Part shown: positions 11,369 to 55,228 of the stretch, one piece after another | Layout: every line of letters begins with the position of its first letter | Numbering within the stretch: the stretch's first letter is position 1 | Assembly (NCBI RefSeq): GCF_014696065.1 | Contig: NZ_JACJPL010000031.1 | Coordinates: 372,001-436,000, forward strand | Reading direction: 5' to 3' | Source: Leptolyngbya sp. FACHB-261 | GTDB lineage: Bacteria > Cyanobacteriota > Cyanobacteriia > FACHB-261 | Length of the DNA stretch: 64,000 nt | Notes under the pieces: model-generated | Told to the model about the DNA's origin: nothing | Database searches by the model: none | The model's input: the letters and a program-made list of their open reading frames with translations, nothing else | Made by a program: the position numbers and the translations under genes

Positions 11369-11689
11369 TTATTGCAGGGCTTGTTGCAGTAGGGTTTTGC
11401 CCAAGTTGCAGAGGGTGATTGAGCGACCGGCGTCGCTGAGGACGCGTTGGCGTTCGATCAGTTGGCTGGCTTCGAGGGGTACGAAGAGGCGGTTGAGGTC
11501 GGTTTCGCTGAGGCTGCATTTGAGGACGAGTAGGGAGGTTGGCACGCTGGCTCTGAGGCTACGGGGGTCGGTGTAGTTGGCGATGATCAGCAGGATCAGT
11601 TTGGCTTGGTTGGAGAGGTTGAGTTCGCGGCTGATGTGGTCCCAGAGTTGGAGGCGAATTTGAGAGGGGGAGAGGTGGGAGAAGTTCAT
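11369..11689 (-). CDS. HTH-like protein, cassette copy A second gene
   Basis: Protein of 106 aa without a named family that I recognise. The central part (LSNQAKLILLIIANYTDPRS, then LVLKCSLSETDLNRLFVPLE and LIERQRVLSDAGRSITL) has the pattern of a winged-helix domain: helix, recognition helix, then a wing with a DGRS-like turn, as in replication-initiator or DnaD-like N-termini. A paralogue with the same arrangement is encoded at 30494-30823. It lies 16 bp behind its partner gene (11706-12110), so the two are one transcription unit. DNA binding is inferred from the pattern only. Confidence 0.75.
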   Translation of the reverse strand: MNFSHLSPSQIRLQLWDHISRELNLSNQAKLILLIIANYTDPRSLRASVPTSLLVLKCSLSETDLNRLFVPLEASQLIERQRVLSDAGRSITLCNLGKTLLQQALQ

Positions 11690-11705: not shown

Positions 11706-12110
11706 TTAAGGGTTGAGGGTTAGGGGTTGGGGATTGGGGGTGTAGAAGCTGCGCAGGTTGAGGTCGAGATCTAACTGGGCTTTGCGTTGTTGCCACATTC
11801 GGCGCAGGTAGGCGATGGTGTCGGCGGCGTAGGTGAAGCGTTGGAGTTCGTTTTTGAGCAGTTGGCCGAGTTCTTGCAGGGCTTGGTGGTTGGGGCAGGT
11901 GCGAATGGTTTGCACGCAGGCTTCGAGCCATTGAATGAGATCGCGGTAACTAATGAATTGGCCCCCGCGATCTTTGCGATGCACAAATAGGACGTTGGCC
12001 CATTGTTCGAAGCGCAAAATACAGTCTTGGGCAATGCCTAAATAGGTGGCGAGATAGCTGAGGGAAATCTCGAATTGACGGGGGTTGATCAGTTGCAAAA
12101 GTTGGCGCAT
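11706..12110 (-). CDS. conserved hypothetical protein, cassette copy A first gene
   Basis: Protein of 134 aa starting MRQLLQLINPRQFEISLSYL. I chose ATG at 12110, because similarity to the paralogue at 30836-31219 begins exactly here; the frame also contains an upstream start at 12152. The conserved core includes QWANVLFVHRKDRGGQFISY, a long helix LQELGQLLKNELQRFTYAAD and a tail LDLDLNLRSFYTPNP. No enzyme motif is visible. It is the first gene of a two-gene cassette, and a structured element (12322-12453) lies about 210 bp upstream. Real coding status is supported by conservation with the second copy; function is unknown. Confidence 0.75.
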   Translation of the reverse strand: MRQLLQLINPRQFEISLSYLATYLGIAQDCILRFEQWANVLFVHRKDRGGQFISYRDLIQWLEACVQTIRTCPNHQALQELGQLLKNELQRFTYAADTIAYLRRMWQQRKAQLDLDLNLRSFYTPNPQPLTLNP

Positions 12111-12139: not shown

Positions 12140-12300
12140 AGGAATGTTGCACTGGGCAGGAAGACCCTGCCCCTACGGAATTGGGGATTGAAAACCGAGG
12201 GGTTTACAGTTTCACAGTCGTGGGTAGGGGCAGGGTTTCCCTGCCCTTTAGGCGGCCAGAATGCGGTCGTGGGTAGGGGCAAGATTGTCCTGCCCTTACC
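12140..12300. repeat. GTAGGGGC-type palindromic intergenic repeat, three arms
   Basis: Several copies of the motif GTAGGGGCAGG and its complement CCTGCCCCTAC occur within 160 bp (for example near 12155-12176, 12223-12250, 12269-12297), each able to fold into short hairpins. The same repeat with the same order is found at 31275-31440 in the second cassette copy. This is a widespread type of cyanobacterial intergenic repeat. Confidence 0.65.
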
Positions 12301-12321
12301 GGGATGCCGCCGCAATGATTG

Positions 12322-12453
12322 AGCCACCCCGATGGTTTGCATAGCAAGTCGGGGTGGCTAATGAGGTGTTAAAATCACCTGTCAGCCGCCGAACTGCCGT
12401 GATCGCAGTGAGGGGGTTAGCTATCTAGGAGTTGGCTATAGCTTCTAGGTAGC
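12322..12453. ncRNA. candidate structured RNA/DNA element, copy A
   Basis: Four helices can be drawn. P1 is 12322-12332 with 12349-12359 (11 bp). P2 is 12364-12368 with 12376-12380. P3 is 12393-12397 with 12405-12409. P4 is 12420-12428 with 12445-12453 (one G-U). P1's right arm can alternatively pair with 12384-12387 around P2, so two folds exclude each other. Copy B at 31452-31583 has the same order with compensatory base changes in P2, P3 and P4. On the plus strand a T-run follows at 12472-12478. The transcribed strand is unknown. Element identity is not recognised. Confidence 0.6.
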
Positions 12454-12547
12454 GTTTAAGTTTTTGGGCTGTTTTTTTCGATAGGCAATCCTCCTCAACC
12501 AGTCGTGAGGATACAGTATCAAAGAGGTTCAGCTTTGACAAGCGTAT

Positions 12548-17099: not shown

Positions 17100-17795
17100 C
17101 TAGCGAGGGTTTTGGCGCAAATTCTCCGCAACCCTGCGAATCCCCTCAACCACATTCAGAAACGCCTCATCCTGATTCGCCCAGGTTGTTATTGGCTTCG
17201 CATCCCTTGGCAACGCCTGAAGCTTACTAAAGGGCGAACCCTTAAAATCCGTAGGCTTCAGAATAATCGGAATAACCCGAGCGCTCCCCTCCGCATGCCG
17301 CTCCATTGCCCGCGCTAACTCAATGTCATTGATATACTCCGACGCCATAAACCTCGGCGTAATCAGCAGCAGAATAATCCGAGCGGCCTCCAGCTGCGCC
17401 TTAATCTCAGCATCCCACTCATTCCCCGCCTCAAGCGCCCGGTCGTGCCAAGCCTTAATTTTGCCCTGCCGTTTCAGGTTCGATAGATGAACCACAAGCT
17501 CTTCGCGTAGCTCATCATCTTTGTGTGAGTACGAAATAAAAACCTCAACCGGCCCCTCTGAACTAGCCTGAGCAACCGTTTGAGCTGAAGGCCGCGATGC
17601 TGCCCCTGGTGGAGGCGCAGAAGCTGTTGATGCCTGCAACCGTTGGATCTGCTGGTTGCACTCATTAATCTGTTCCTGAAGCTCAAACTGCTGAGATGCA
17701 TTCGACGTCCCGGCTAGCTTCTGCTCCAAAAAAGCCAGCTTGCGCTGCCAAGTCCCAAGCGCACCGTTTGCTTGATCAGTTCCACCCGAAGCCAT
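17100..17795 (-). CDS. TIR domain protein with N-terminal helical domain
   Basis: Protein of 231 aa. Residues 1-60 are helical (LEQKLAGTSNASQQFELQEQ) and may be an adaptor or coiled coil; a Pro/Ala/Ser linker follows. From about residue 83 a TIR_2-type domain begins: VFISYSHKDDELREEL, then IKAWHDRALEAGNEW, IILLLITPRFMASEY, and INDIELARAMERH. E159 is the candidate catalytic glutamate of NAD-cleaving TIR domains. RVIPIILKPTDF completes the fold. It is the first gene of the four-gene operon. In known TIR defence systems the domain destroys NAD+ or makes a nucleotide signal; which applies here is unknown. Confidence 0.9.
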   Translation of the reverse strand: MASGGTDQANGALGTWQRKLAFLEQKLAGTSNASQQFELQEQINECNQQIQRLQASTASAPPPGAASRPSAQTVAQASSEGPVEVFISYSHKDDELREELVVHLSNLKRQGKIKAWHDRALEAGNEWDAEIKAQLEAARIILLLITPRFMASEYINDIELARAMERHAEGSARVIPIILKPTDFKGSPFSKLQALPRDAKPITTWANQDEAFLNVVEGIRRVAENLRQNPR

Positions 17796-30493: not shown

Positions 30494-30823
30494 TTAAAGC
30501 TGGGCGCGCAGGGCCATTTGGATCAGTTGGGGGTTCAGATGGCAGAGGATGACGGAGCGACCGGCATCGGTGAGGACGCGCTGACGTTCGGTGTAGTGGC
30601 AGGCTTCGAGGGGGAGCAGCAGGCGGTTGACTTCGGGTTCTTTGAGGTTGCATTGCAGGACGAGCAGGGAAATGGGGACGCTGGCTTTGAGGCTGCGGGG
30701 GTCGGTGTAGTTGGCGATTAGGAGCAGGAGCAGTTTGGATTGGGGCGAGAGGTTGAGGTTGCGGCTGATGTAGTCCCAGAGCATGAGGCGGGTTTGAGAG
30801 GGGTTGAGATGGGAGGTGTTCAT
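30494..30823 (-). CDS. HTH-like protein, cassette copy B second gene
   Basis: Protein of 109 aa, a paralogue of 11369-11689 with the same start pattern (MNTSHLNPSQTRLMLWDYIS) and the same winged-helix-like core (LLLIANYTDPRSLKASVP, LLPLEACHYTERQRVLTDAG). Most differences are conservative replacements, which argues for selection on the protein. It lies 12 bp behind its partner gene. DNA binding and replication- or transcription-type roles are possible; none is shown by the sequence. Confidence 0.75.
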   Translation of the reverse strand: MNTSHLNPSQTRLMLWDYISRNLNLSPQSKLLLLLIANYTDPRSLKASVPISLLVLQCNLKEPEVNRLLLPLEACHYTERQRVLTDAGRSVILCHLNPQLIQMALRAQL

Positions 30824-30835
30824 TGGGTTGGGGCC

Positions 30836-31219
30836 TTAGGGGTTGGGGGTGTAGAAGCTGCGCAGGTTGAGGTCGAGGTCGAGTTGGGCTTTGCGTTGTT
30901 GCCACAGGCGACGCAGGTAGGCAATGGTGTCGGCGGCGTAGGTGAAGCGTTCGATTTCGCGTTTGAGGAGTTGGCCGAGTTCTTGCAGGGTTTGATGGTT
31001 TGGGCTGTGGCGGATGGCTTGGACGCAGGCTTCGAGCCATTGAATAAGGTTGCGGTAACTGATGAATTGGCCGCCGCGATCTTTGCGATGCACAAACAGG
31101 ACGTTGGCCCATTGCTCGAAACGCAGAATTAGGCCGGGTGGAATGCCTAAATAGGTGGCGAGATAGCTGAGGGAAATCTCGAATTGACGGGGATTGATTA
31201 GGTGCAAAAGTTGGCGCAT
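30836..31219 (-). CDS. conserved hypothetical protein, cassette copy B first gene
   Basis: Protein of 127 aa from ATG at 31219. The frame is open further upstream through repeat DNA, but similarity with the copy A protein starts at this ATG (MRQLLHLINPRQFEISLSYL). Conserved blocks are QWANVLFVHRKDRGGQFISY, LIQWLEACVQAIR, FTYAADTIAYLRRLWQQRKA and the end LRSFYTPNP. No catalytic motif was recognised. It is first in the two-gene cassette and lies about 230 bp downstream of the structured element copy B. The level of conservation across two loci supports a real gene. Confidence 0.75.
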   Translation of the reverse strand: MRQLLHLINPRQFEISLSYLATYLGIPPGLILRFEQWANVLFVHRKDRGGQFISYRNLIQWLEACVQAIRHSPNHQTLQELGQLLKREIERFTYAADTIAYLRRLWQQRKAQLDLDLNLRSFYTPNP

Positions 31220-31440: not shown

Positions 31441-31451
31441 GCCAAATGATT

Positions 31452-31583
31452 AGCCACCCCGTTGATTTGCATTGCAAGTCGGGGTGGCTAGGAGGGTGTT
31501 AAAATCACCCGTTAGCCTCCTGACTGTGCTGATCACAGTTTGGGGGTCAGCTACTCAGAAGTTGCCTAAAGCTTTTGAGTAGC
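31452..31583. ncRNA. candidate structured RNA/DNA element, copy B
   Basis: Helices match copy A. P1 is 31452-31461 with 31480-31489. P2 is 31494-31498 with 31506-31510, around an invariant TTAAAAT loop. P3 is 31523-31528 with 31534-31539. P4 is 31550-31557 with 31576-31583. Relative to copy A, one pair in P2 changes A-T to G-C and one in P3 changes C-G to T-A. In P4 two pairs swap and a G-U becomes G-C. A GGGGG run between P3 and P4 is kept. The transcribed strand is not known. Confidence 0.6.
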
Positions 31584-31722
31584 GCTTCAGTTTTAAGGGG
31601 TCTGTTTCGTAAATCAAAACCTCCATCTGAACGGTTAGCGATTACGTTATCAGAGGGATAGGAACTGATGCAAGATATTTGGAGAAAATAGGGTCTTCTC
31701 TATCTTTTCAAGATGGCTTTGA

Positions 31723-34700
31723 TTAACGTGTTCCAATGCCGTCGCACATATGACGATCTTCTGGGCTGACATTGGGATTGTTCTTCAGATAGCCCTGTAC
31801 CCAATTGCAGCCGCGTGTCAGTAGCTCATCAAGGTCAAAATTCCAGAGGATGATGCTCTTGTCCGCACTAGCCGAAGCCAGGGTCTTGCCATCGGGGCTC
31901 CAACTCACGCTATAGACCTCAGCACTGTGACCAGAGAGGGTCTTGAGCAGCTGGCCCGTCTCCACACTCCACAGCTTGATGCTCTTGTCCCAACTAGCCG
32001 AAGCCAGGGTCTTGCCATCGGGACTCCAACTGATGCTCCAGACCACATCAGTGTGACCAGAGAGGGTCTTGAGCAGCTGGCCCGCCTCCACACTCCACAG
32101 CTTGATGCTCTTGTCCCAACTAGCCGAAGCCAGGGTCTTGCCATCGGGACTCCAACTGATGCTCCAGACCACATCAGTGTGACCAGAGAGGGTCTTGAGC
32201 AGCTGGCCCGCCTCCACACTCCACAGCTTGATGCTCTTGTCCCAACTAGCCGAAGCCAGGGTCTTGCCATCGGGACTCCAACTGATGCTCCAGACCACAT
32301 CAGTGTGACCAGAGAGGGTCTTGAGCAGCTGGCCTGTCTCCACACTCCACAGCTTGATGCTCTTGTCATTGCTAGCCGAAGCCAGGGTCTTGCCATCGGG
32401 ACTCCAACTCACGCTATAGACCTCAGCAATGTGGCCAGAGAGGGTCTTGAGCGGCTGGCCCGTCTCCACACTCCACAGCTTGATGCTCTTGTCATTGCTA
32501 GCCGAAGCCAGGGTCTTGCCATCGGGGCTCCAACTCACGCTATAGACCACATCAGTGTGACCAGAGAGGGTCTTGAGCAGCTGGCCCGTCTCCACACTCC
32601 ACAGCTTGATGCTCTTGTCCGCACTAGCCGAAGCTAGGGTCTTGCCATCGGGACTCCAACTCACGCCCCCGACTGCATCGGTGTGACCAGAGAGGGTCTT
32701 AAACGGCTGGCCCGTCTCCACACTCCACAGCTTGATGCTCTTGTCCGCACTAGCCGAAGCCAGGGTCTTGCCATCGGGACTCCAACTCACGCTCCAGACC
32801 TCAGAGCTGTGGCCCGAGAGAGTCTTGAGCGGCTGGCCCGTCTCCATACTCCACAGCTTGATGCTCTTGTCCCAACTAGCCGAAGCCAGGGTCTTGCCAT
32901 CGGGACTCCAACTCACGCTAGGGACCACATCAGTGTGACCAGAGAGGGTCTTGAGCGGCTGGCCTGTCTCCACACTCCACAGCTTGATGCTCTTGTCATT
33001 GCTAGCCGAAGCCAGGGTCTTGCCATCGGGACTCCAACTCACGCTATAGACCTCAGCAATGTGGCCAGAGAGGGTCTTGAGCGGCTGGCCCGTCTCCACA
33101 CTCCACAGCTTGATGCTCTTGTCCGCACTAGCCGAAGCCAGAGTCTTACCATCGGGACTCCAACTGATGCCCCCGACTGCAGCACTGTGACCAGAGAGGG
33201 TCTTGAGCGGCTGGCCCGTCTCCACACTCCACAGCTTGATGCTCTTGTCCTTACTAGCCGAAGCCAGGGTCTTGCCATCAGGACTCCAACTCACGCTCCA
33301 GACCGCAGCACTGTGACCAGAGAGGGTCTTGAGCGGCTGGCCCGTCTCCACACTCCACAGCTTGATGCTCTTGTCATCACTAGCCGAAGCCAGGGTCTTG
33401 CCATCGGGACTCCAACTGATGCCCCCGACTGCATCGGTGTGACCAGAGAGGGTCTTAAACGGCTGGCCCGTCTCCACACTCCACAGCTTGATGCTCTTGT
33501 CCTTACTAGCCGAAGCTAGGGTCTTGCCATCGGGACTCCAACTCACGCTAATGACCGTAGCAGTGTGACCAGAGAGGGTCTTGAGCGGCTGGCCCGTCTC
33601 CACACTCCACAGCTTGATGCTCTTGTCCCGACTAGCCGAAGCCAGGGTCTTGCCATCGGGACTCCAACTGATGCTCCAGACCGCATCACTGTGACCCTCT
33701 AGGCGATTGCGCTCACTGGTCCCGTAGACCACTTGCCATAACGCGACCAAAGCCTGAACTCGAATCAAAGGATCGGCTGTCCTGCCCGCCTTTTGCAACT
33801 GGATTCCGCCCTTAAGACCAGGTATTAAAGCATCGAGGCCTGAGTTCAGAGAGAAAAGCTGTTCTGAGGAAGTACTCAAAGCTTTGATCTCGTTGTTTTG
33901 AGCTTTGCGCGACTGAATAAAAGCCACGACTCCCAAGCCGACGGCAACCACCAAGCCAGCAACGGCAACCACTAGGGCAAAGGTTATGGTTTTCCGGGCT
34001 TTCTTTTGGCGTTCAATTTCTTCTCGTTGTCGCTGAAGTTCCTCCTGCTGGCTTCGCTCCTGTTCCGCTGCTTCAGCATCACGGGCTGCGAGACTTGCAT
34101 CCAAAAACTGCATCGACTGCTCAAAGCGAGAATTGTACCGTTGCGCCCAGGCGGCATTCGGTTTGTTTTGCTCACGCCAATTTAAGCCAATGCTCAATTC
34201 TGGATCTCTGCCCAGTCCAGCAGTTCCCTGCTGGTACATGGTTGAGGTATCCGCCAAGCGGCGATAGATTCGAGCCGAGCTGGCCTCTTCATCCACCCAC
34301 TCATTCAATCGCTGCCAGACTCGCATCAAGCTCTCATGCGAGATATCCAGCACCGTATCTTCAGTCAGCACCACACCCGCAGGCGGCATCAGAAATGAGC
34401 GGCTAGGACCTCGGTAGTCTTCAACAATGGCAGCGACCTCCGCCGCCTCGGCCTCTGCTACTGCGCACACTTCTCGCAATCGCGTGGGTCGCCGAATGCC
34501 TCGCCCATCGGGGCCTTTCTCGGTCAGACACTTAAACAGCTTTTCAGCAATCTTGCGGCAGCGTTCATCTGGCAAGCCGTTGTAAATCTCATCTGCGTGA
34601 CGCGATAGCGCCTCGGCCATGCCACCAATCGCCTCATAGTGGCGTAGATCGATGGGCTCCCCCGGTTCCCGGTGGTTCGTCCAGTAATCCCAAGTCCGCA

Positions 34701-35697
34701 TTAGTGCATGTTGCAGAATTGGCAACTGGTCCGGGCTATCGCCCACATCATTCAGCAACCGATTCACCAAACGCGGAGCCATCTCCGCCCCACCCACCGC
34801 CACCGGCCCCGTAATCGCTGCCCGTCGCTGCTCCCGCGTCATGCGCGGAATTAAATACTGACTATCGTTCAGCATCTCCGGCAAGTCGCGGAACTGCGCA
34901 CAATCGCCCAGAAAATCTGAGCGCATCGTCAGCACCACATAAACCGGCACCTGCCGCTGCCCCACTGCCTCCAGCAACAGCTTCACAAACGCCGCCGCCT
35001 CATCCCCCGCCGCCTGCCCACTGCTCTGCTTGAAGCGAAACAGCTCCTCAAACTGATCCACCACCACCAGCAGATTCTCCGCCTCCGGCAACCGGGCCTG
35101 TTGCACCACCTCCACCAGCCCCAACGCCCCCCGCCGCAGCGTCGTCTCCGTCAAAATCGCCCGTACCTCCAACTCCCCCACTGACAAAGCCAATAAACTC
35201 CGCTCCCCCTCCCCTCGCAGGGGAGGGGCTAGGGGAGAGGTCTCCAACCTCCAGTCCCCCTCCCCTACGAGGGGAGACCCTAGGGAAGCGCTCTCCTCCC
35301 CCCGCAAGCCAGAAGCCAAAGGCGAAACCTCCTCCAACCTCCGGTCCCCCTCCCCTCGCAGGGGAGGGGCTAGGGGAGAGGTCCCCAACCCATCCGCCTG
35401 ATTCAGCGCCCTAGCCAAATTGCCAATTGGGTCATCGCCGGGACGCAGCAACGCCACCCGCCAGCTTGAGCCCGCCTGCGTCATAAAGCCACTGTGCAAC
35501 GCTGGCAACAAACCCGCCCGCACCAGCGAAGACTTGCCACTGCCCGAAGTGCCGACCACCGCCAGAAACCGGGTGCGCCGCAACCGCCGCAACAACTCAT
35601 CCGTTTGCCCTTCCCGGCCAAAAAACAGATGGTCCTCATGCGCCTCAAAAGGCCGCAGCCCCGGAAACGGATTGAGGCGAGTCTGAGTGCTAACCAT
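31723..35697 (-). CDS. STAND ATPase with 15 WD40 repeats
   Basis: Protein of 1324 aa. The N-terminus NPFPGLRPFEAHEDHLFFGR leads into an AAA_16/STAND ATPase with Walker A GTSGSGKSS at about 48-56 and Walker B LLVVVDQFEELF. Four palindromic-repeat peptides are inserted at about residues 105-165. A helical region and a membrane or hydrophobic helix (FALVVAVAGLVVAVGLGVVA) follow. The C-terminal half is 15 WD40 repeats of exactly 42 residues that are almost identical. The ATG overlaps the stop of the upstream TIR gene (TAATG), so both are co-translated. By analogy with NLR-like systems, the WD40 part would sense a ligand and the ATPase oligomerise. This is inference. Confidence 0.92.
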   Translation of the reverse strand: MVSTQTRLNPFPGLRPFEAHEDHLFFGREGQTDELLRRLRRTRFLAVVGTSGSGKSSLVRAGLLPALHSGFMTQAGSSWRVALLRPGDDPIGNLARALNQADGLGTSPLAPPLRGEGDRRLEEVSPLASGLRGEESASLGSPLVGEGDWRLETSPLAPPLRGEGERSLLALSVGELEVRAILTETTLRRGALGLVEVVQQARLPEAENLLVVVDQFEELFRFKQSSGQAAGDEAAAFVKLLLEAVGQRQVPVYVVLTMRSDFLGDCAQFRDLPEMLNDSQYLIPRMTREQRRAAITGPVAVGGAEMAPRLVNRLLNDVGDSPDQLPILQHALMRTWDYWTNHREPGEPIDLRHYEAIGGMAEALSRHADEIYNGLPDERCRKIAEKLFKCLTEKGPDGRGIRRPTRLREVCAVAEAEAAEVAAIVEDYRGPSRSFLMPPAGVVLTEDTVLDISHESLMRVWQRLNEWVDEEASSARIYRRLADTSTMYQQGTAGLGRDPELSIGLNWREQNKPNAAWAQRYNSRFEQSMQFLDASLAARDAEAAEQERSQQEELQRQREEIERQKKARKTITFALVVAVAGLVVAVGLGVVAFIQSRKAQNNEIKALSTSSEQLFSLNSGLDALIPGLKGGIQLQKAGRTADPLIRVQALVALWQVVYGTSERNRLEGHSDAVWSISWSPDGKTLASASRDKSIKLWSVETGQPLKTLSGHTATVISVSWSPDGKTLASASKDKSIKLWSVETGQPFKTLSGHTDAVGGISWSPDGKTLASASDDKSIKLWSVETGQPLKTLSGHSAAVWSVSWSPDGKTLASASKDKSIKLWSVETGQPLKTLSGHSAAVGGISWSPDGKTLASASADKSIKLWSVETGQPLKTLSGHIAEVYSVSWSPDGKTLASASNDKSIKLWSVETGQPLKTLSGHTDVVPSVSWSPDGKTLASASWDKSIKLWSMETGQPLKTLSGHSSEVWSVSWSPDGKTLASASADKSIKLWSVETGQPFKTLSGHTDAVGGVSWSPDGKTLASASADKSIKLWSVETGQLLKTLSGHTDVVYSVSWSPDGKTLASASNDKSIKLWSVETGQPLKTLSGHIAEVYSVSWSPDGKTLASASNDKSIKLWSVETGQLLKTLSGHTDVVWSISWSPDGKTLASASWDKSIKLWSVEAGQLLKTLSGHTDVVWSISWSPDGKTLASASWDKSIKLWSVEAGQLLKTLSGHTDVVWSISWSPDGKTLASASWDKSIKLWSVETGQLLKTLSGHSAEVYSVSWSPDGKTLASASADKSIILWNFDLDELLTRGCNWVQGYLKNNPNVSPEDRHMCDGIGTR
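31850..33715. repeat. 15 tandem 126-bp WD40-coding repeats
   Basis: Repeats of 126 bp encode 42-residue WD units with an invariant frame SWSPDGKTLASAS and DKSIKLWS. Variation is limited to the residues after SGH, the pair before SW, one residue before DKS and the pair before KTL. Units at about 31985-32365 are the closest to each other, pointing to recent tandem duplication. Confidence 0.92.
35203..35382. repeat. four palindromic repeat copies inserted in frame in the STAND gene
   Basis: Copies at about 35203-35241, 35252-35288, 35291-35329 (degenerate) and 35343-35382 carry the CCCCTCGCAGGGGAGGGGCT type motif, each able to form a hairpin. On the minus strand they encode SPLAPPLRGEG-like peptides without breaking the frame. 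The same family occurs outside genes at 38110-38140 and 56820-56855. Confidence 0.85.
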
Positions 35698-50733: not shown

Positions 50734-51519
50734 ATGGCAATGCGTAAGTATCAAGTTGCATTTTCCTTTGCCAGCGAAAATCGACCATATGTTAAAAAAG
50801 TTGCTGATCATTTGCAGAACTCAGGTGTCGATGTCTTCTATGACAGCTTTGAACAGGTTGATCTTTGGGGTAAAGACCTGTATTCACATCTTGATAATAT
50901 ATATCGAAATAGAGCACATTACTGTGTAATATTTATCTCGGAAGCTTACGGAAGAAAGACGTGGACAAATCATGAACGGAAAAGCGCACAAGCTCGTGCT
51001 TTTGAGGAAAACCAAGAGTACATACTTCCTGTGCGGTTTGATGATACCGAAATTCCTGGTATTCACCCAACAATCGGTTATGTTGATCTGCGTTCTACTC
51101 AACCTCAGCAATTGGCTGAGATGATTATACAAAAGCTTCATCGCTCAAGCTTTTTAAAAGACGAGCAAACTCAAGCTATACTTTCGTCCTCTAAAGCTCA
51201 AGGGAAAACAAAGTCTGCTTATTCTTCTAGAACTCAAACAAAAACAGTAAAGTTCAATCAAGAAGGAATAGGTAAGCTACCCAATGATTGCCCAGTTGTA
51301 TACAGAATTCTGACCGAGACTGGTAGCAACAACTTTACTGGAGCAGCTAAGAAAGGAGAAGTCCAGGAAAGAATTAGAGAGCATTTATTAAGCGGAAGAA
51401 AACACGTACCTGGCTCAAAAGTTAAAATCGAAAGAATGTCTAGTATCGAAAGCGCAAGGGCAAAAGCAGAAAGAATCATTGCAAGAACCAAGCCCAAGTA
51501 TAATGGTCGAAGAAAGTAA
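50734..51519 (+). CDS. TIR domain fused to a GIY-YIG-like nuclease domain
   Basis: Protein of 261 aa. Residues 1-140 are a TIR_2-type domain: VAFSFASENRPYVKKVADHL, VFYDSFEQVDLWGKDL, VIFISEAYGRKTWTNHERKS, with E81 as candidate catalytic residue. After a Ser/Lys linker, residues 185-258 resemble a GIY-YIG nuclease: CPVVYRILTE (GIY strand), NNFTGAA (YIG strand), VQERIREHL (Arg helix) and ARAKAERIIARTKPKYN (Glu plus final Asn). The YIG tyrosine is Phe, so the fold is probable and activity is less sure. It converges with another TIR gene. The coding region is AT-richer than the housekeeping genes. Confidence 0.82.
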   Translation: MAMRKYQVAFSFASENRPYVKKVADHLQNSGVDVFYDSFEQVDLWGKDLYSHLDNIYRNRAHYCVIFISEAYGRKTWTNHERKSAQARAFEENQEYILPVRFDDTEIPGIHPTIGYVDLRSTQPQQLAEMIIQKLHRSSFLKDEQTQAILSSSKAQGKTKSAYSSRTQTKTVKFNQEGIGKLPNDCPVVYRILTETGSNNFTGAAKKGEVQERIREHLLSGRKHVPGSKVKIERMSSIESARAKAERIIARTKPKYNGRRK

Positions 51520-52028: not shown

Positions 52029-52928
52029 TTACGATTCAGTCAATGTGTCAAATTCCACGCATTTCGGGCTCTTGTCAGATATATTTGAAAAATTATCTGA
52101 GCCAGCAGTCAGAATCCAGTAATAAAACGTGAGTTCATCTGCCACATCACTGCGAGTGTTGTCCTTTATATCAAGAATTTTTAATGCCGCATAAAGACCA
52201 TGATTGTTCTGCACTATCAAATATTGACCGATTTCAGGTGATCTTACACGTGAAGTAAAATCAAGGGTTGATGCTTGTGTAATTTCGTTCAATTTTACTG
52301 TCATTGGAACCAGAGCAACTCCTCTAATACTTGCAGTGTCCGTATAGCAATGGATGCGGACATTGCTTGCCTTACTCCAGATGGTTTCAAATAAATGATG
52401 ACCATCACCTATCCGAAATCTTCCGTTATAGCTAGAATAGTCAAATTTTGCTTCTCCAGAAAGTAAAGGAGATTTAGGTGATGGAACAGAATGCGCTTTT
52501 ACCTCAAATAAGTTTTGGCCTAACTTCTCACAAATTAAAACTGCAACTTCAAATGGAGAGTGCTTTCTTAGATCTATATATCCCGTAGTAGAAAGAACGC
52601 TATCTATTTCTGTATCATCAAATCGAGCAGGAAGTATGTACTCGTAACTCTCACCAATTGCTCTAGCTTGAGCTGCTCTTCGTTCATGATTAGTCCACAT
52701 CTTATTTTTATAGTTAGCTGAGATAAAAATGACAGTGTACTTGGCTCTATTCTTATAGACGTCGATCAGATATTCATATAAGTTTTTTCCCCAAAGATTA
52801 GTTTTTTCATCATCGTCATAAAAAACTTTTATTCCTCGCGCTACCAACGCGCCAGCGATCATTTCTACATAGGAGCGGTCTTCTCCGGCAAAAGATAACG
52901 CTACATCGTACTTTTTATTTTGGTTCAT
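52029..52928 (-). CDS. TIR domain protein with unknown C-terminal domain
   Basis: Protein of 299 aa. The N-terminal TIR domain (about 1-145) is a close relative of that at 50734: VALSFAGEDRSYVEMIAGAL, VFYDDDEKTNLWGKNLYEYL, VIFISANYKNKMWTNHERRA (E82 candidate catalytic), ILPARFDDTEID. The C-terminal half (about 165-299, SSYNGRFRIGDGHHLFETIW onward) has no recognised family and may be the sensing or effector-specific part. It converges with the TIR/GIY-YIG gene. ATG at 52928. Base composition is AT-rich, as in its neighbour. Confidence 0.85.
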   Translation of the reverse strand: MNQNKKYDVALSFAGEDRSYVEMIAGALVARGIKVFYDDDEKTNLWGKNLYEYLIDVYKNRAKYTVIFISANYKNKMWTNHERRAAQARAIGESYEYILPARFDDTEIDSVLSTTGYIDLRKHSPFEVAVLICEKLGQNLFEVKAHSVPSPKSPLLSGEAKFDYSSYNGRFRIGDGHHLFETIWSKASNVRIHCYTDTASIRGVALVPMTVKLNEITQASTLDFTSRVRSPEIGQYLIVQNNHGLYAALKILDIKDNTRSDVADELTFYYWILTAGSDNFSNISDKSPKCVEFDTLTES

Positions 52929-53744: not shown

Positions 53745-54281
53745 ACCAAAAACAAAGTGGGTCGAACTGAGGTCAAATCCACTCAGGTATAGAACAAAGT
53801 GGGTTAGGCCACGATCAGATCTATTGTGCCCATAAAATCATCTACGTCAGACATAGCTCAATCTTACTCAGACATAGAACCAAGTGGGTCAGACATAGAA
53901 TCATCTATGCCAACCATAACATCATCTATGTCAGACATAGTTCAATCTCACTCAGACATAGAACCAAGTGGGTCAGACATAGAATCATCTATGCCAACCA
54001 TAACATCATCTATGTCAGACATAGTTCAATCTCACTCAGACATAGAACCAAGTGGGTCAGACATAGAATCATCTATGCCAACCATAACATCATCTATGTC
54101 AGACATAGTTCAATCTCACTCAGACATAGAACCAAGTGGGTCAGACATAGAATCATCTATGCCAACCATAACATCATCTATGTCAGACATAGTTCAATCT
54201 CACTCAGACATAGAACCAAGTGGGTCAGACATAGAATCATCTATGCGCGGCATAGATGATTCTATGTCGGGGATAGAATGA
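53745..54281. repeat. 21-bp-period tandem array 3 with 84-bp higher-order unit
   Basis: About 25 units of 21 bp. The last four 84-bp blocks (four units each: TCAGACATAGAACCAAGTGG-type, then three others) are nearly identical; GAACCAAGTGGG recurs at 53877, 53961, 54045, 54129 and 54213. Upstream units are more degenerate. One frame is open and would read heptads SDIEPSG, SDIESSM, PTITSSM, SDIVQSH. The TAGTTCAATC core also occurs in array 1. It ends about 165 bp before the small gene at 54446. Confidence 0.93.
54233..54263. repeat. 14-bp perfect inverted repeat at the end of array 3
   Basis: AGAATCATCTATGC (54233-54246) pairs perfectly with 54250-54263 around GCG. The left arm is an array unit and the right arm its inverted copy, so the array closes with a hairpin. 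Confidence 0.8.
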
Positions 54282-54916: not shown

Positions 54917-55062
54917 ACTCCGTGCGCTTATCAGGTTCCCCCACGCTCAAAACCCGAGCACAAGGGGAACCTAAACCAAGTTTTCATTTGCTTATAAATT
55001 GGACTTGCAAAATTTTTTACTTTGTCCTATCGTTTCGTTCAGTCCAATTCTCGAAGCGCCGC

Positions 55063-55228
55063 CTAGGGTTGATGTCACAACCCTAGACGACTGACCTCCA
55101 AGCTGGTATCACCCAGTCCAAAGGCTACGACGGAGTTTAGCACTCCGGCGTGGTTCCACCCCATTCCGAACGGGTCAGGTGGGGACCTAGAGACGGAGCG
55201 AAGGGGCAATCTTATGCAGATTGCCCCT
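55063..55228 (+). ncRNA. candidate structured RNA / leader upstream of a small gene
   Basis: Four hairpins in a row: CTAGGGTTG/CAACCCTAG (55063-55071, 55078-55086), CGGAGT/ACTCCG (55131-55136, 55142-55147), GGTTCCACC with GGTGGGGACC (55152-55160, 55178-55187, one bulge) and an 11-bp perfect stem (55202-55212, 55218-55228) followed by CAAAAA. Inside the third, CCCCATTCCGAAC resembles the conserved CCCAT-CCGAAC loop of 5S rRNA, but the flanks do not form a normal 5S. It ends 25 bp before the ATG at 55254. It may be a leader or an independent RNA; identity unknown. Confidence 0.55.

Follow-up and report, generated by a model that had tools for sequence, protein, structure and literature searches.

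Three copies of a structured element lie in a 64,000-nucleotide (nt) stretch of the genome of Leptolyngbya sp. FACHB-261 (contig NZ_JACJPL010000031.1, positions 372,001 to 436,000; we call this stretch the window). The element is very probably a genuine structured RNA, encoded on the strand opposite to a divergent small-protein gene or two-gene cassette. Many more copies are dispersed around the genome, and across these copies the RNA stays the same while its protein partner is exchanged. As to function, we favor, with a probability of roughly 0.4, an independent RNA output that would be coupled to interchangeable divergent regulators. The claim that this is an RNA is much firmer than any claim about its mechanism.

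An initial annotation, made from the letters of the window, had described four helices (P1 to P4) at 12322-12453 and in a second copy. Folding supports these helices (-70.7 kcal/mol and z -6.9 for copy 1; -74.8 and z -8.7 for copy 2). The compensatory changes between the two copies are also as described: AGGTG/CACCT in P2 becomes GGGTG/CACCC, a C-G pair in P3 becomes T-A, and TATCTAG/CTAGGTA in P4 becomes TACTCAG/TTGAGTA. But the element is not limited to two copies, as was thought: the home genome holds 72, and a third window copy (55046-55189, minus strand), whose partner differs from that of copies 1 and 2, had been missed.

Searching the home genome with blastn gave 23 clear copies and 2 distant ones. 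A covariance model built from those 23 (R1) located the element next to each of the 28 members of another subfamily of p148 (one of the partner proteins, described below), as well as in Symploca and another genus. With a model from 69 copies (R2), we found the 72 copies in the 6.95-Mb home genome, at E values of 3.3e-7 or better.

The proposal that the RNA structure is under selection is strongly backed by covariation over 69 copies. First, when the 23 home copies were aligned without a structural model (using MAFFT), 8 of the 41 consensus pairs had changed on both sides. In that alignment, which spans a single subfamily, covariation is already visible in P4 and at the top of P3. Second, in an alignment of 69 copies that was fitted to the covariance model, pairing is seen in 92.9% of cells (versus 76.0% in shuffled data), double compensatory changes occur in 34 of the 41 pairs (507 cells, versus 148 in shuffles), and the covariation score is 0.510, versus at most 0.122 once the partners are slid by 1-3 columns. 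Since the model shaped this second alignment, independent support comes from the MAFFT alignment and from the divergent copies that turned up where they were predicted to lie.

In other genera, bases just before P1 pair with bases just after P4 to form an outer helix, P0 (for example, CCCAAAAA/TTTTTGGG, CCTAAAAT/ATTTTAGG, and CAGAACTCAAT/ATTGAGTTCTG). The summed duplex score for P0 is 320, versus 235 +/- 9 for permuted sequences, and 0 of 2000 permutations reach it, although kinship of the sequences can inflate such a test. P0 is weak in the A subfamily (which includes window copies 1 and 2) but is clear and covaries in the other genera. An AGC that forms the 5' edge of P1 can also pair with the GCT after P4, as part of P0, and is a candidate for alternative pairing. 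The competition that had been proposed earlier, between P1 and P2 for the same GGCT, is not supported: the second AGCC, paired with GGTT, is conserved in P3, and 3 of its 4 pairs form in 65-68 of 68 copies. Similarly, of the loops that had been called invariant, TTAAAAT is fixed only within one subfamily, but across the wider family the loop is GTGnTAAA-like, and the length of the G run is not constant.

Beyond the core of copy 1, the motifs TATCAAAGAG (12517-12526) and TTTGACAAG (12534-12542) are conserved, and the RNA reaches about 90 nt past 12453. Altogether, the alignments suggest an RNA of roughly 230-290 nt, with P0 closing a junction of hairpins P1-P4, followed by a 3' domain that ends near a (G)TCAAG/GCAAG motif.

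We assign the RNA to the strand opposite the partner genes because of the wobble pairs and the folding energy. On the RNA strand there are 98 G-U pairs versus 7 A-C, and the consensus fold is -61.9, versus -37.5 on the opposite strand. One G-U pair in P3 is nearly invariant (67 of 68 copies), and the minus strand would carry an A-C mismatch there.

The element had been said to match no known riboswitch, and indeed the window has 0 matches to Rfam 15 at the gathering score. A permissive Rfam search (E up to 1) of 30 further loci found nothing at the element. A covariance-model search of cyanobacterial genomes, as the initial annotation had proposed, found further homologues: R2 has matches at E 0.001 in 94 of 390 genomes, representing 47 of the 160 sampled genera. 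(This survey scored eight candidates per genome, so its copy numbers are minima.) Three genomes of another genus have 22, 14, and about 10 copies; Microseira wollei NIES-4236 has 20, Symploca sp. SIO3C6 and SIO2E9 have 8 and 3, Microcoleus vaginatus HSN003 has 4, and Symplocastrum torsivum and Coleofasciculus sp. LEGE 07092 have one each. R2 found no copies in Moorena bouillonii PNG or Trichocoleus FACHB-40. An RNA that is absent from Rfam, present in 47 of 160 sampled cyanobacterial genera, and found in 72 copies in one genome would rank with the most abundant families of paralogous RNAs known from bacteria.

A divergent small protein adjoins the RNA in 71 of the 72 home copies (all 23 A copies, all 28 B copies, and 20 of the 21 others; the remaining copy has no recognized partner). 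The reported link to a two-gene cassette (p148 and wHTH) is strongly supported, but the cassette is not obligatory: the same RNA also adjoins three or more other small-protein families. The partner sets in the home genome are p148 with wHTH, p148 alone, p148 with S, wHTH alone, C1 (73 amino acids), C2 (63-72 amino acids), and S. These are apparently five unrelated families, and none of them matches Pfam or NCBIfam above the cut-offs. In other genomes, S lies beside 49 of the 56 copies examined, and several of the remaining 7 are cut by contig ends. C1 has 12 matches in the genome, of which 9 adjoin an RNA copy, and p148 has 47 matches in the home genome. Purifying selection acts on both p148 (dN/dS of 0.17-0.18) and wHTH (0.24-0.36). 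The layout of a constant RNA with swappable proteins offers a direct way into several orphan protein families.

We also noticed that p148 is part of a family found more widely in cyanobacteria (Symploca, Microcoleus, Trichocoleus, and others; loci L163-L241). At many of these loci, a gene resembling a helix-turn-helix (HTH) protein or another small open reading frame (ORF) lies beside p148, in the RNA's place. p148 had no match in viral contigs. One 167-amino-acid reading frame in another genome (G000:C1:248332-248781) contains two tandem S domains, with no RNA detected beside it.

Table 1. Coordinates of the RNA copies, their partners, and associated features in the window
Feature	Position	Strand	Basis or remarks
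RNA core, copy 1	12320..12465	+	Covariance model match C31:384320-384465; folding; covariation over 69 copies
Helices, copy 1	P1 12322-12332/12349-12359; P2 12364-12368/12376-12380; P3 ~12384-12397/12405-12418; P4 12420-12433/12440-12453		
RNA 3' domain, copy 1	12466..12545	+	Aligned home-genome copies and copies from other genera; 3' end approximate
3' domain motifs, copy 1	12517-12526; 12534-12542		TATCNGAG-like; GACAAG/GTCAAG-like; conserved in alignments
Inverted repeat between RNA copy 1 and divergent gene	12263..12311		GCGG..GTGGGTAGGGGCA..TGCCCTTACC..CCGC; kept in A copies
p148 (partner protein 1), copy 1	11706..12110	-	Divergent from RNA copy 1; orphan fold
wHTH (partner protein 2), copy 1	11369..11689	-	Winged-helix-like, weak, under Pfam cut-offs
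RNA core, copy 2	31450..31595	+	Covariance model match C31:403450-403595
p148, copy 2	30836..31219	-	Divergent from RNA copy 2
wHTH, copy 2	30494..30823	-	
RNA core, copy 3	55046..55189	-	C31:427046-427189, E 9e-17; P4 GTCGTCTAGGGTTG/CAACCCTAGGCGGC
Family C1 protein, 73 amino acids	55254..55475	+	Divergent from RNA copy 3

What might this arrangement do? Because the RNA is the constant part and the protein is the variable part, we rank an independent RNA output with interchangeable regulators first, followed by a toxin-antitoxin-like module and then a mobile element. The divergent small protein would act at the shared intergenic region, which has class-specific inverted repeats, and would thereby control both its own gene and the RNA. 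(The repeat between RNA copy 1 and p148 is a possible operator or leader hairpin; in other classes, inverted repeats of another sequence occupy this position.) The RNA would be a common trans-acting output, and different proteins would provide different inputs to one type of RNA. We infer both that the RNA is transcribed and that the two genes are paired as regulator and output. In oxyR-oxyS and gcvA-gcvB, a regulator gene is likewise divergent from the small RNA that it controls, and the RNA gene and the protein gene are back-to-back with a short common intergenic region. However, those systems are single copy with one conserved regulator, whereas here the copies number in the tens, the partner families are five or more, and DNA binding is putative.

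Several observations weigh against this proposal. Any resemblance to DNA-binding proteins is limited to wHTH, and is weak (best E 0.009, below the cut-off). For p148, the structure predicted by AlphaFold2 (pLDDT 94.8) matches no known fold confidently (the best is UvsW.1 at Z 5.8), and we rejected a MerR/excisionase reading of p148 on the same grounds. S, C1, and C2 have no family assignment, and a single-sequence fold of S was uninformative (pLDDT 49). For these reasons, "regulator" is a guess. Furthermore, in S-type copies from other genomes, the start codon of S is just 27-66 nt from the start of the RNA model, so the 5' ends of the RNA and the S gene probably overlap, and this spacing fits antisense control equally well. 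A broader idea is that a regulatory or ribonucleoprotein system is widespread in cyanobacteria, in which one conserved RNA, present in up to 72 copies per genome, serves interchangeable small proteins as a common output or a common antidote; in our view this has close to an even chance.

Antisense control would also suit a toxin-antitoxin-like or defense-like module, in which the RNA neutralizes or represses the small protein, either by 5' antisense overlap or by direct binding, and copies are kept by addiction. We consider this unlikely. The unit common to the dispersed copies (partner gene plus RNA) is compact, at about 520-560 bp, and its copy number is high and variable, which would suit such a module; the divergent 5' ends would overlap; the RNA is kept at two loci where the S gene is truncated (L205 and L185); and several loci have neighbors that resemble toxin-antitoxin or restriction genes. 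But the partners have no toxin match, p148 is under strong purifying selection, and it is implausible that one RNA neutralizes five unrelated proteins by binding them (antisense control is not implausible). Type I and type III toxin-antitoxin systems are also compact and often multicopy modules of an RNA and a small-protein gene. Type I toxins are small and hydrophobic, while the partners here do not look hydrophobic (judged from sequence by eye), although 5' antisense overlap is possible. In type III systems, a tandem-repeat RNA lies on the toxin's strand; here the RNA core has no tandem repeats and lies on the strand opposite its partner, and no ToxN/AbiQ-like toxin gene was found, the partner proteins having no Pfam match above the cut-off.

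Somewhat less likely still is a small mobile element that needs the folded RNA, or the folded single strand, for its own movement, with the small proteins as accessories. The copies are dispersed, and in one genome (G276) three young copies share 91-94% identity across 513-581 bp, while their flanks are unrelated. Orthologous loci lose homology at the edge of the unit on one side, and an empty-site comparison between sister genomes was informative on one side only. But most copies are old and diverged, and no transposase, reverse transcriptase, or recombinase recurs among the neighboring genes. Unlike DNA transposons or MITEs, the three young copies have no terminal inverted repeats or target-site duplication (by eye), and the queried copy has no relative in plasmid and phage collections at the sensitivity of blastn. 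The omega RNAs of TnpB/IscB, HEARO, and retron RNAs are also structured RNAs tied to dispersed elements, and P0 resembles a closing a1/a2 helix. Here, however, there is no recurrent nuclease or reverse transcriptase gene and no evident guide, and Rfam gives no HEARO match at the element. We rejected a copy-specific guide because the sequence past the 3' motif is common to young paralogues.

A repeated DNA site that yields no RNA (palindromes bound by a protein, or a recombination site that folds) is improbable. It would suit the inverted repeats and the tandem arrays of about 21 bp that cluster at RNA loci, but the strand-asymmetric wobble pairs and the loop conservation are as expected for RNA (though G-T pairs form in DNA too). 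The arrays lie outside the RNA core, in a minority of copies, and the repeat unit differs in most copies. They occur within 500 bp 3' of the RNA (two bins of 250 bp, with 9 of 92 and 11 of 92 copies) and 250-750 bp away on the other side (8 of 92 and 15 of 92), a region that in B copies falls between p148 and wHTH; bins further off have 0-4%. Examples of copy-specific 20-21 bp repeats are at L112 (C10:81-82 kb), 3' of the RNA at L314, and at L302 and L305. We rejected the idea that the repeat units are copied from the RNA as a template (the longest common substring is 6.8 with the own RNA versus 6.7 with others).

Lastly, a switch of the kind that the initial annotation had proposed, here taken as a minus-strand leader or riboswitch of the cassette genes, would fit the element's location: it immediately precedes the start codon of the partner, and in S-type copies the spacing is fairly uniform. 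This reading is very improbable, as the wobble counts, the fold energies, and the G-U pair in P3 place the RNA on the other strand. We also rejected a gene on the 3' side as the regulated partner: these genes are diverse and unrelated, in both orientations, with no recurrent family among 50.

The closest multicopy RNA that we compared is the FopS family of Bacteroides thetaiotaomicron, with 14 copies of about 65-70 nt, each a single-stranded 5' stretch and a terminator hairpin (PMC11697453). FopS is also a paralogous family dispersed in one genome, but the portions of that report considered here describe no dedicated divergent partner family, whereas we find 72 copies and a multi-helix core.

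The family is absent from Rfam, and we know of no counterpart to its layout. Our literature search was of open-access papers, so the family may have been described earlier under another name.

We also observed other unusual genes in the window. The gene for a large protein with WD40-type repeats, many of them near-identical (31723-35697, minus strand), and RNA copy 2 point toward each other with their 3' ends. ORFs built from short repeats (SDIEPSGSDIESSMPTITSSM; SGIDESISGIDCFM) lie near RNA copies, at 53826-54281 (plus strand) and downstream of another copy (L256). By the look of their sequences, 17100-17795, 50734-51519, and 52029-52928 may encode TIR-type-like proteins, one with a GIY-YIG-like tail.
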